64,000 bases of DNA from Rhodospirillum centenum SW. GTDB lineage: Bacteria > Pseudomonadota > Alphaproteobacteria > Azospirillales > Azospirillaceae. Numbering within the stretch: the first letter of the stretch is position 1; each line of letters opens with the position of its first letter. The stretch covers positions 2,953,001-3,017,000 of the forward strand of contig NC_011420.2 of assembly GCF_000016185.1 (NCBI RefSeq), in the 5' to 3' direction. Below, piece after piece: positions 43,190-48,092 of the stretch. A program made the position numbers and the translations under genes. A model generated the notes under the pieces. The model was not told the DNA's origin. It saw nothing but the letters and a program-made list of their open reading frames with translations, and did not search any database.

Positions 43190-43459
43190 ATGTCGATCAC
43201 TCCCGAGCGCAAGCAGGCGCTCATCGAGGAATACAAGACCAAGGACGGCGACACCGGGTCGCCCGAGGTGCAGGTTGCGATCCTGACGGAGCGCATCGTG
43301 AACCTGACCGAGCACCTGAAGACCCACGCGAAGGATTTCCATTCGCGCCGTGGCCTGCTGGTCATGGTCGGCCAGCGCCGTGGTCTGCTGGACTATCTCA
43401 AGCGCAAGAACCAGGGCCGGTACGACACCCTGATCCAGCGCCTGGGCCTGCGTCGCTGA
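43190..43459 (+). CDS. rpsO: 30S ribosomal protein S15
   Basis: 89 residues, the standard length. [36 protein letters not shown] and [22 protein letters not shown] are diagnostic. It binds 16S rRNA helix 22 early in 30S assembly and often represses its own translation through a leader structure; the 240-bp gap after truB could hold such a leader and a TTGACT hexamer (43017-43022) may be a -35. A long hairpin after it separates it from the two islet genes that now lie before pnp. Confidence 0.97.
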
Positions 43460-43475
43460 CGCATAGGAGTCGCGA

Positions 43476-43522
43476 AAATCCGTGCGGAGCGAATCGGACT
43501 GTGATTCACTTCGCACGGATTT
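43476..43522 (+). terminator. Long hairpin terminator/processing stem after rpsO
   Basis: AAATCCGTGCG (43476-43486) pairs perfectly with CGCACGGATTT (43512-43522), and an inner stem GAATC/GATTC extends it. It ends in TTT 16 bp beyond the rpsO stop and is symmetrical enough to work on both strands. Confidence 0.65.
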
Positions 43523-43540
43523 CCGAATCGGGAGCAACGA

Positions 43541-43744
43541 ATGTCCGCCAGTGACGATGCGGGTTGGGAGCAGCAGATATTCGACCAGGTTGCCGTGGGG
43601 CTGATCCGAAATTCCTCTGCCCCGTTCGATGAGGCCGTTTTCGCGCGGCAGATGGAACAGAATCTGGCTGACGACACAGAGTCCGGTCTCGGATTTTTCG
43701 ACCAGCTTCAGAAGATGGCTTCCGGATCCAGGAAAGCCGATTGA
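43541..43744 (+). CDS. Small hypothetical protein in the rpsO-pnp islet
   Basis: 67 residues; GGGAGC lies before ATG 43541. The sequence is acidic and Gln-rich (EQQIFDQVAVGLIRNSSAPFDEAVFARQMEQNLADDTESGLGFFDQLQKMA) and looks helical. No family recognised. Base composition is clearly less GC-rich than the flanking genes, with codons such as ttt and tct. Its end overlaps, in another frame, the upstream part of the open frame that contains the next gene, so the pair could be coupled or a frameshifted single gene. Confidence 0.6.
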   Translation: MSASDDAGWEQQIFDQVAVGLIRNSSAPFDEAVFARQMEQNLADDTESGLGFFDQLQKMASGSRKAD

Positions 43745-43799
43745 CCAAAGCCCGGGATTTTCCTGGGCTGTTGTCGTTATTGGGATCAGGAAAAAGTGC

Positions 43800-44366
43800 G
43801 TGGATATCCTTACGGACTCTGTGAGGCGGGCTGAGCGCAAGGGAAACCTGGAAAAGGCAGCCTTGGGCGTCTGTTCGGTCCTGAATCAACGCATGCTGAA
43901 GTCCGACCCGACCCTGACGCCGATCCGCCTGGATGCTGGCCGTCAGGACAGGATGTTCGAACTCTATGTTCAGCGGGTCGCTGCGCTGAAGGGAGTCGCC
44001 CATATGGCAGATTCCCTGATCAACCCGCTCAAGATCGCAAGCCTGACCGCTCTTTGCATTCTGGAAGCGGCTCCGCTGGTATCACCGCGGCAGGATTCGG
44101 TCATCGCTGCCTATCGGAATTCCTATTACGCGTTCCAGGTGGCGCTGAATTTTCTGGAAATCCGGCGGATCAGGCTCGACCAGTCCATCCAGACTCATGC
44201 CCTGAATTTTCTTTCGCACGTGCAGCATGTTGCCGAGCGGAGCGGGACTGGAACAGGCGTGCGCTACGACGATTTTGCCTACAGATTTACAATCATCCAT
44301 TCGTTCCTGGCGACCCTTTGCAAGGGCTACAATGGGCAGTTGACTGTTTCGATTTCCTCTGACTGA
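43800..44366 (+). CDS. Hypothetical protein in the rpsO-pnp islet
   Basis: 188 residues from GTG 43800 (CAGGAA 8 bases upstream). The frame is open further upstream but without a good start. It begins [32 protein letters not shown] and has a hydrophobic segment [22 protein letters not shown], then [25 protein letters not shown], predicted mostly helical. No family recognised. Like its small neighbour it has lower GC and different codon use from rpsO and pnp, indicating recent acquisition. It ends 119 bp before pnp. Confidence 0.65.
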
Positions 44367-44485
44367 AGCTATCAAGACACTCGTTTGTCCATTTGAAGCT
44401 GGACACATTTGGCGGGACCACCGATCGGGTCTCGACCCGCCGTCCAATCCGGGGCGGCAGGGTTTCGGATGGAAGGAAGACGACG

Positions 44486-46609
44486 ATGTTCAAGGTTTTC
44501 CGCAAGGAAATGATGTGGGGCGGGCGGAAGCTCGTTCTGGAGACGGGCAAGGTCGCCCGTCAGGCCGACGGGGCCGTGTGGGCCAGCTACGGCGACACGG
44601 TGGTTCTGGCCACCGCGGTGGCCGCCAAGGCCCCGAAGCCGGGCGTGGACTTCTTCCCGCTGACGGTCAACTACCAGGAGAAGGCCTTCGCCGCGGGCAA
44701 GATCCCCGGCGGCTTCTTCAAGCGCGAAGGGCGCCCGACGGAGAAGGAGGTCCTGACCTCCCGCCTGATCGACCGGCCGATCCGTCCGCTGTTCGCGGAC
44801 GGCTACCGCAACGAGACCCAGGTCATCGTCACCGTCCTGTCCCACGACCTTGAGAACGATCCCGACATCGTCGCCATGGTCGCCACCTCCGCCGCGCTGA
44901 CCATCTCGGGCATCCCGTTCCTGGGACCGATCGGCGCCGCCCGCGTCGGCTACAAGGACGGCCAGTTCGTCCTGAACCCGACGCTGGAGCAGGTCGAGGC
45001 CAGCGATCTCGACCTCGTCGTCGCCGGCACCACCGAAGGCGTGCTGATGGTGGAGTCCGAGGCGAAGGAACTGCCCGAGGACGTGATGCTGGGGGCCGTG
45101 ATGTTCGGCCACCGCGAGTTCCAGCCGGTCATCGACCTGATCATCGACCTCGCCGAGATGGCGGCCAAGGACCCGATGGCGATCCCGGCGCCGGCCTACG
45201 ACAAGGACGCGGTGAAGACCCGCATGGCCGCCCTGATCGGCCAGGACGTCCGTCAGGCCTACACGCTGACCGTGAAGCAGGAGCGCTACGCCGCCATCGG
45301 CGCCGCCAAGCTGAAGGCGCTGGAGACGATGGTCGCCGAGGGCACCGCGCCCGAGGCCGTGGCCAGCGTCTTCAAGGAGCTGGAGAGCGACATCCTGCGC
45401 GGCAGCGTGATCGAGACCGGCAAGCGCATCGACGGCCGCACCACGGTGGACATCCGTCCCATCGTCTCGCAGGTCGGCGTGCTGCCCCGCGCCCACGGCT
45501 CGGCCCTGTTCACCCGCGGCGAGACGCAGGCCCTGGTGGTCGCCACGCTGGGCACGAACCAGGACGAGCAGATCGTCGACGCGCTGGAAGGCGAGTACCG
45601 TGAGAGCTTCATGCTCCACTACAACTTCCCGCCCTACAGCGTGGGCGAGGCCGGCCGCATGGGCAGCCCGGGCCGGCGCGAGATCGGCCACGGCAAGCTG
45701 GCTTGGCGCGCCGTCCGGCCGCTGCTGCCGACCAAAGAGACCTTCCCCTACACGATCCGCGTCGTGTCGGAGATCACCGAGTCGAACGGCTCCTCCTCCA
45801 TGGCCACGGTCTGCGGCAGCTCGCTGTCGATGATGGACGCCGGCGTGCCGCTGCCGCGGCCGGTGGCGGGCATCGCCATGGGCCTGATCAAGGAAGGCGA
45901 GAAGTTCGCCGTGCTGTCCGACATCCTCGGTGACGAGGACCATCTGGGCGACATGGACTTCAAGGTCGCCGGCACCGAGAAGGGCGTCACCGCGCTCCAG
46001 ATGGACATCAAGATCACCTCGATCACCGAGGAGATCATGAAGATCGCCCTGGCCCAGGCCAAGGACGGTCGCGTCCACATCCTGAGCGAGATGAACAAGG
46101 CGCTGAACACGGCGCGCGAGGCGGTCAACCAGAACGCGCCGCGCATCACCGTGATCAACATCCCGAAGGACAAGATCCGCGACGTGATCGGCTCCGGCGG
46201 CAAGGTGATCCGCGAGATCGTCGAGCAGACCGGCGCCAAGATCGACATCGAGGACGACGGCACCGTCAAGGTCGCCGCCGTGGACGGCAAGGCGTCCGAG
46301 GCCGCGATCAAGTGGATCAAGGGCATCGTCGCCGAACCCGAGGTGGGCGAGATCTACGAGGGCAAGGTCGTCAAGATCATGGACTTCGGCGCCTTCGTGA
46401 ACTTCCTCGGCAGCCGGGACGGCCTCGTCCACATCTCCGAGCTGAAGAACGAGCGCGTCGCCAAGGTCACCGACGTCGTGAAGCAGGGCGACGCCGTGAA
46501 GGTGAAGGTCCTGGGCTTCGACGACCGCGGCAAGGTGAAGCTGTCCATGAAGGTCGTGGACCAGACGACCGGCGAGGACCTGTCCAAGAAGGAAGAGGCC
46601 GAGGGCTGA
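44486..46609 (+). CDS. pnp: Polyribonucleotide nucleotidyltransferase (PNPase)
   Basis: 707 residues; GGAAGGAAG precedes ATG 44486. It degrades RNA phosphorolytically 3' to 5' as a trimer and joins the degradosome. Two RNase PH domains (first [47 protein letters not shown], second [32 protein letters not shown] with [18 protein letters not shown]) flank the helical linker. KH ([24 protein letters not shown]) and S1 ([28 protein letters not shown]) domains complete it. Its terminator has been duplicated by an IS insertion immediately downstream. Confidence 0.98.
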
Positions 46610-46671: not shown

Positions 46672-46724
46672 CAGACTGCTGACAAAGGCCTGGCGTGAGC
46701 CGGGCCTTTGTGATTCGATTGGTC

Positions 46725-48092
46725 ATGCTGAGGAAACCGACGGCGCAGCAGACTGAAATCGAGATGGTGACGCTCGACGGTCTGGTTCCGCCCGATCACC
46801 TGCTTCGCAAGATCGACGCGGTGATCGACTTCTCCTTCATCCATGATCGCGTGTCCGGGCTTTACTGTCCGGACAACGGCCGTCCGGCCCTTGATCCGGT
46901 TGTCATGTTCAAGGCGCTGTTCATCGGCTACCTGTTCGGCATCCGCTCCGAACGCCAGCTGGTGCGCGAGATCCAGGTGAACGTGGCGTATCGCTGGTTT
47001 CTGGGTCTGCGCCTGACCGATCCGGTGTTCGACGCCTCGACGCTGAGCCAGAACCGGCGCCGGCGTTACCGGGACACCTCCGTGGCGCAGGACATCTTCG
47101 ACCATGTGGTGGAGCAGGCGATCGGCCACGGGCTGGTGGACGGCACCGTGCTCTACACCGACAGCACCCACCTCAAGGCCAACGCCAACAAGAACCGCTA
47201 CGACAAGGCGGTGGTCGCCAAGTCGCGGGCGGATTACTGGGACGATCTGGACCGGGCGGTGGAGGCGGACCGCGCCACCCACGGCAAGAAGCCCCTCAAG
47301 CCCAAGGACCGGCAGCCGCCCGAGAAGGAGACCAAGATCAGCCGCACCGATCCGGAGAGCGGCTACATGGTGCGCGATGGCAAGCCCACCGGCTTCTTCT
47401 ACCTTGATCACCGCACCGTGGATGGGCGCCATGGCATCATCACCGACAGCTTCGCCACCCCCGCCAACGTGCACGACAGCATCGTCTATCTCGGCCGGCT
47501 CGACCGCCAGCGCGCCCGCTTCGCGCTCGACGTCAAGGCCGTCGGGCTGGACGCCGGCTATGCCACGGCCGGGATCGCAAAGGGGCTGGAGGACCGCGCC
47601 ATCCTCGGCGTCACCGGCTACAACCGACCGACACCCCCGGCCCCGGGGATGATGCCCAAGAGCGCCTTCACCTACGAGCCCGGGACCGACACCTGGTCAT
47701 GCCCCGGCGGACAGGCCCTCGCCTACGCCACCACCGACCGCAACGGCTACCGCCACTACAGGAGCGATCCGGCCCTCTGCTTCGCCTGCCCGCTGCTCGC
47801 GTCGTGCACCCGCAACCCCAAGGCCGTCCGCACCATCACCCGCCACCTCTGGGCCGACATCCGCGAGCGCACCGACGCCCACCGCAAGACCCCCTGGGGC
47901 AAGGCCATCTACAAGCGACGAAAAGAGACGGTCGAACGCTCCTTTGCCGACGCCAAACAGCTCTTCGGGCACCGCTACGCACGCTTCCGCGGCCTCCTCG
48001 GCGTCACCTGGCAGTGCCTGCTCGCCGCCGCCCAGAACATCAAGAAAATCGCCCTCGCAATCGCCCCGAAGGCAGCCCTCCGGCCAGCCTGA
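46725..48092 (+). CDS. IS1182-family transposase
   Basis: 455 residues, intact. The N-terminal DUF772-type domain (VPPDHLLRKIDAVIDFSFIHDRVSGLYCPDNGRPALDPVVMFKALFIGYLFGIRSERQLV) is followed by a DDE catalytic core (VLYTDSTHLKANANKN, VKAVGLDAGYATAGI, and ETVERSFADAKQLFGHRYARFRG) and a Cys-rich insertion (CFACPLLASC). It cuts and joins IS ends. No frameshift or stop is present, so the element may still be active. Start ATG 46725 is used; a GTG at 46695 would lie in the left hairpin. Confidence 0.95.
   Translation: MLRKPTAQQTEIEMVTLDGLVPPDHLLRKIDAVIDFSFIHDRVSGLYCPDNGRPALDPVVMFKALFIGYLFGIRSERQLVREIQVNVAYRWFLGLRLTDPVFDASTLSQNRRRRYRDTSVAQDIFDHVVEQAIGHGLVDGTVLYTDSTHLKANANKNRYDKAVVAKSRADYWDDLDRAVEADRATHGKKPLKPKDRQPPEKETKISRTDPESGYMVRDGKPTGFFYLDHRTVDGRHGIITDSFATPANVHDSIVYLGRLDRQRARFALDVKAVGLDAGYATAGIAKGLEDRAILGVTGYNRPTPPAPGMMPKSAFTYEPGTDTWSCPGGQALAYATTDRNGYRHYRSDPALCFACPLLASCTRNPKAVRTITRHLWADIRERTDAHRKTPWGKAIYKRRKETVERSFADAKQLFGHRYARFRGLLGVTWQCLLAAAQNIKKIALAIAPKAALRPA

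Follow-up and report, generated by a model that had tools for sequence, protein, structure and literature searches.

What are the two genes that part rpsO from pnp in Rhodospirillum centenum SW, and how did they come to lie inside a near-universal operon? The window, by which we mean the whole analysed stretch of 64,000 nucleotides, belongs to a genome of a single contig (4.36 Mb) that is the sole member of its genus, and the locus was compared across a sample of 82 genomes from the family. Its features are as follows.

43190..43459, + strand: rpsO (ribosomal protein S15), the upstream flank; an open reading frame with an rpsO match in 82/82 family genomes
43477..43521, + strand: long RNA hairpin in the rpsO-ORF1 spacer; 13+6 bp with one internal mismatch
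43541..43744, + strand: ORF1, 67 aa, a candidate antitoxin or partner; 24 homologs precede ORF2 genes, and a profile of them recovers held-out loci
43749..43769, + strand: hairpin resembling a terminator in the ORF1-ORF2 spacer; 9 bp with a weak T tail
43800..44366, + strand: ORF2, 188 aa, proposed Fido-fold toxin without the Fic motif; GTG start chosen by homology
44418..44485, + strand: pnp leader, from alignment with module-free sites; the same as in relatives without the module
44486..46609, + strand: pnp (polynucleotide phosphorylase), the downstream flank; an open reading frame located in family genomes

The gap between rpsO and pnp

The original prediction that two genes split rpsO from pnp was confirmed. 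From the rpsO stop at 43459 to the pnp start at 44486 there are 1026 bp, with ORF1 and ORF2 inside and on the same strand as both neighbours, whereas the gap was 194-431 bp in 76 of the 81 family genomes in which it could be measured (rpsO and the pnp start were found in all 82, but split between contigs in one). The five expanded gaps were those of G050 (1193 bp), G121 (1085 bp), the window (1026 bp), G015 (994 bp) and G110 (703 bp). The first four, out of 82 genomes, hold an ORF1-ORF2 module, with GC below that of the flanks each time, so that the frames are not conserved and GC-matched in most relatives. The difference in base and codon use was as clear as had been claimed: in the window the GC was 0.56-0.57 in the module (0.569 in ORF1, 0.564 in ORF2) against 0.64-0.67 in rpsO and pnp (0.637 and 0.672), and GC3 was also lower (0.662 and 0.683 against 0.878 and 0.963). 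At the same position in G110 (L068, contig C94) there was an unrelated antisense DUF427 gene.

G050, G121 and G015 represent two other genera, and their ORF1 and ORF2 share only about 18-26% protein identity with those of the window. Their ORF1 carries N-x-S-x-P-F and their ORF2 carries L-I-N-x2-K-x-A-A-L-T. In the rpsO copy of G121 (L066) ORF2 is interrupted by a frameshift, which may be genuine or due to faulty assembly. In relatives free of the module the gap contains a hairpin like that of a terminator and a pnp leader that is conserved; the carriers have kept this leader. Because the flanking non-coding DNA is too diverged, the ends of the insertion are only approximate. A DUF772/DDE transposase lies directly 3' of pnp (window 46695-48092), so an IS element has entered the locus as well.

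The hairpin behind rpsO had been described as a long perfect stem; it is real, but it is not perfect. It lies at 43477-43521, its arms of 23 nt are 87% complementary with an internal mismatch, and its folding energy of -37.6 kcal/mol (z -3.7) beats all 200 shuffles. The T run after the stem is too poor for a good terminator. A counterpart was found in G121 and none was clear in G050 or G015, and an Rfam search gave no match. Four other copies (those of G050 and G114 and two of G121) have a strong intrinsic terminator between ORF1 and ORF2, and such intergenic terminators would favour ORF1 over ORF2. We also observed TGTGATTC about 29-36 nt 5' of ORF1, at window 43500-43507 and at the equivalent position in G050 and G121; the fourth rpsO copy, that of G015, has TGAGTC instead. 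It is possibly a promoter or an operator.

A coding pair and its spread

The two genes had been called unrecognised, and no convincing match was obtained for either in Pfam, NCBIfam, PADLOC or PHROGs; a profile search of PDB sequences gave no match. Nothing in the family libraries therefore ties the module to a tested system. This silence of the libraries is what a non-coding spacer with spurious ORFs would produce, but that explanation is hardly credible, being contradicted by protein-level conservation across phyla and by the synonymous excess. Between the close relatives G006 and G034, ORF2 differs by 29 synonymous and nine non-synonymous changes, ORF1 has a dN/dS of about 0.27, and the other pairs compared agree. 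Because protein homologs persist where DNA similarity does not and synonymous changes are in excess, we consider the frames to be coding. Judged from sequence, both genes look translated and maintained under purifying selection, yet they diverge fast between sites.

ORF1 and ORF2 are linked at more than 20 loci, always in that order, with an ORF1-type gene directly 5' of nearly every intact ORF2. ORF1 has about 60-85 aa and ORF2 about 160-205 aa, and several copies show an overlap of 1-4 nt between the two frames. The ORF1 proteins are strongly divergent and have in common an Asn loop and, after it, a long helix. ORF1 of the window has a short helix, a loop with N-x-S/A-x-P-F-D and then the long helix; its predicted model has helices at 7-19 and 31-62, and a fold search with ORF1 gave no match. 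To guard against circularity, a profile trained on 24 ORF1 sequences was applied to 1,256 open frames that included held-out loci. It picked the frame adjoining ORF2 at the held-out loci L153 (E 1e-10), L136 (5e-6), L191 (7.5e-5) and L154 (1.2e-3), and it recognised no ORF1 among these frames in L142, L144, L145 or L159. Most of the Bacteroidota loci gave no confident match to the profile; the upstream protein there is a TM segment with a short ORF1-like tail. The layout is that of type II toxin-antitoxin systems, namely a two-gene operon with a small partner first and a toxin-sized gene second, often overlapping.

Besides the rpsO-pnp gap there are about 12 further sites, and the copies are usually lower in GC than their surroundings. 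Copies were found between addB and addA and after tatC in G121, which has three with that at rpsO-pnp, 3' of L-asparaginase II in G114, between livF and a CoA-ligase-type gene in G006 and G034, after a second livF in G024, between ureD and ureA in G111 and G116, after mlaC in G025, 5' of an nth-like gene in G016 and 5' of tauE in G011. G024, G478 and G481 have two copies each. One ORF2 profile identified 13 carriers among the 82 family genomes, and a later profile added G010. In the G010 locus (L192:2821-3509; contig C2, about 1271820-1272508) a weak ORF2 relative, beside an ORF1-like frame judged by eye, lies just 5' of a phage terminase large subunit; this copy is within a prophage. Searches of plasmids, phages and viral contigs gave no relatives of the module, so it is this one prophage locus that provides the link to phages. 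Beyond the family, one of 385 genomes in an even sample of the class (G376) and 10 of 398 sampled from the remainder of the phylum carry the module, and relatives were named in Magnetococcales, Gallionellales, Gammaproteobacteria, Deltaproteobacteria, Latescibacteria and Bacteroidota (Prevotellaceae, Tannerella and others). The original suggestion of a small selfish or defence module gains from this recurrence at unrelated sites, in other phyla and at a prophage terminase, as well as from the toxin-like fold predicted for ORF2.

Could the pair instead be an old, vertically inherited component of the rpsO-pnp operon, lost in most lineages and perhaps tuning the expression of rpsO or pnp? Four copies occupy the same site in three genera, a tree that unites them in one clade was not rejected (AU p 0.187), and another family has a copy directly 3' of pnp. 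However, many losses would be required, the GC is below that of host genes, most copies are sited elsewhere and the best tree puts the rpsO copies in two pairs. We regard this history as improbable. The four rpsO-pnp copies may have arisen by several insertions at this site or been exchanged by way of the conserved flanks, or they may descend from an old insertion that was later lost many times. In G376 (L191:3083-4280) the copy 3' of pnp consists of XRE, ORF1 and ORF2, and the rpsO-pnp gap is normal; with this copy the region looks more like a hot spot.

Larger versions of the module were observed in other groups. In a gammaproteobacterium (L151:3480-5307) an HTH-like gene, ORF1 and ORF2 are followed by a 2-TM protein, and in a latescibacterium (L153:3740-5269) ORF1 and ORF2 are followed by one that is 45% identical to it; that of L151, the one scanned, matched no Pfam family. 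In Bacteroidota (L152, L154, L155, L157 and L158) a predicted 4-TM protein precedes a TM-fused ORF1-like tail and then ORF2, and this three-gene cassette is conserved, although the start of L157 is cut off. The repeat units beside one copy from outside the class (L142:4332-5523) resemble a CRISPR array.

These membrane proteins are unneeded by a plain toxin-antitoxin system, and their presence in Bacteroidota and a few others is a point against it. They would suit anti-phage defence or superinfection exclusion, in which ORF1 and ORF2 would be a sensor that triggers a membrane effector in the larger versions. The prophage copy 5' of a terminase fits with this, as do Magnetococcales-type copies that adjoin TA, Mrr-like and CRISPR-like sequences. 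On the other hand, most copies, including that of the window, have no membrane partner, PADLOC gave no match and no clear defence islands surround the copies in the family of the window. A defence role is thus an explanation that we keep in mind and think unlikely.

The predicted fold of ORF2 and its possible role

Structure prediction and a sensitive profile search, the checks proposed together with the original prediction, gave a Doc-like model for ORF2 and a profile score above all 200 shuffles. The AF2 model, built with a 16-sequence alignment, has six long helices (pLDDT 86.6, pTM 0.84), and Foldseek ranked Doc of phage P1 first (probability 0.94, E 0.22). When the model was re-aligned to three Doc entries, 116-118 of 122-124 residues were matched with Z of 10.7, 10.5 and 10.3 (the best with 117 of 124 residues and rmsd 2.9), scores that are to be read with the caveat that helical bundles can exceed Z 10 by chance. 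Other Fic proteins came next (Z 6.1 and 5.6), and unrelated folds reached at most 5.4. For comparison, Doc itself matches Fic and AvrB with Z of 4-8.3, relations that have been accepted as homology (PMC2686095). HHalign placed 32 ORF2 sequences and 18 Doc homologs co-linearly over 99 columns with a score of 22.3, with its own probability at only 5%; the best of 200 block shuffles scored 18.6 and reversed profiles 9-11. The predicted model and the profile score above the shuffles both point to the helical core of the Fido fold.

In this alignment the stretch NHPFxDGNKRTA of Doc falls on [RK]P[IV]Q-(10-15)-N[E/A/S]x[FY]A of ORF2. The Pro and the Asn of the Doc loop region are each retained in 28/32 ORF2s, while the column of the catalytic His is Arg/Lys in 21/32 and Ala in the window, and the K/R after the Asn is gone. 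None of the 32 carried the Fic/Doc motif HPFx[D/E]GN[G/K]R or HxFx(D/N)(A/G)NKR in strict or relaxed form, ORF2 matched no Fic/Doc family profile (Pfam Fic, NCBIfam DOC_P1), and TIGR01550 had no match in the genome of the window. We had considered the His before an ADxHK stretch as the Fic His and dropped it, as the profile alignment and helix order place the Fic loop after the KW..RPIQ helix. ORF2 has conserved residues of its own: K78 (32/32), Y56 (30/32) and K64 (25/32). Without the Fic residues, ORF2 is unlikely to transfer AMP or phosphate in the manner of Fic, and it might instead act by binding or through chemistry at its conserved Lys/Tyr.

It may be asked whether the likeness to Doc is fortuitous, ORF2 being an unrelated helical protein with a regulatory or binding role. 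The HHalign probability of 5%, the missing motif residues and the inflation of Z by helical bundles all speak for this. However, the Z of Doc exceeds that of any unrelated fold by 5 units and other Fic proteins follow, the helices agree in number and order, and no shuffle scored as high as the sequence profile. We consider a chance resemblance doubtful, though it deserves to be taken seriously.

A small gene first, a toxin-fold gene second, overlap or a terminator between them, low GC, sporadic occurrence, many sites and multiple copies together make a plan like that of type II toxin-antitoxin systems. We lean towards the explanation that the islet is an undescribed, mobile, two-gene conflict module of this kind, whose toxin would have a Fido fold without Fic chemistry and whose partner would be ORF1. 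By analogy, we infer that ORF2 is toxic and that ORF1 neutralises it. The pair in the window might be transcribed by read-through from rpsO or from its own weak promoter. ORF1 would be made first, bind ORF2 and hold it inactive, and the frame overlap or the intergenic terminator would keep ORF1 in excess. Loss of ORF1, or imbalance, would release ORF2, which would then stop growth, probably by binding a target and not by transferring AMP or phosphate.

The candidates for toxin-antitoxin or defence systems thus gain an unannotated family of two genes with relatives in at least three named bacterial phyla. If our reading is true, it would be the second branch, after AvrB, of Fido proteins that act without the Fic motif, and would make the role of the fold without AMP or phosphate transfer testable. 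Near-universal operons (rpsO-pnp, addAB and ureDA) can evidently host small intruding modules. More tentatively, we speculate that these conflict modules form a new and widespread family, based on a Fido fold that has been stripped of its catalytic residues and has a conserved set of its own (Y56, K64, K78, P92 and N107), with a new antitoxin family that is membrane-anchored in Bacteroidota, and that rpsO-pnp is a hot spot because the module has its target or regulation in ribosome or mRNA-decay functions.

Comparison with known systems

Phd-Doc, known from phage P1 and from chromosomes, shares with the module a plan of two genes with the small one first. The ORF2 model has the six-helix order of Doc, its best structural match, and the Pro before and the Asn at the start of the helix that follows the active-site loop are kept (28/32 each). 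ORF2 differs in lacking HxFx(D/N)(A/G)NKR, with mostly Arg/Lys in the His column and the K/R after the Asn lost, in its longer loop and in an invariant Lys placed elsewhere (K78, 32/32). ORF1 is short and helical with no Pfam match, and has no match to a DNA-binding domain of the Phd/YefM type.

The FicTA systems (VbhTA and EcFicTA) also have a small upstream gene, a two-helix partner with a conserved loop and the Fic core fold, which in ORF2 is predicted. EcFicA consists of two helices joined by a loop of about 10 residues (PMC5033356), and in size and shape ORF1 appears like these antitoxins. ORF2 differs from their toxins in that it is shorter and has no Fic motif. The inhibition motif of VbhA/FicA, [S/T]xxxE[G/N], occurred in two of 24 ORF1s, outside the conserved loop and not at the expected place, and is thus not a conserved feature of ORF1.

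The AvrB branch offers a precedent for a Fido fold without the motif, as AvrB has lost most of the motif residues and kept the loop Pro (PMC2686095), which is retained in ORF2 also. AvrB, however, is a single effector targeted to plants with an extra lobe, whereas the bacterial ORF2 is small and is encoded beside a partner gene. We advise against classing the module with either Phd-Doc or FicTA.
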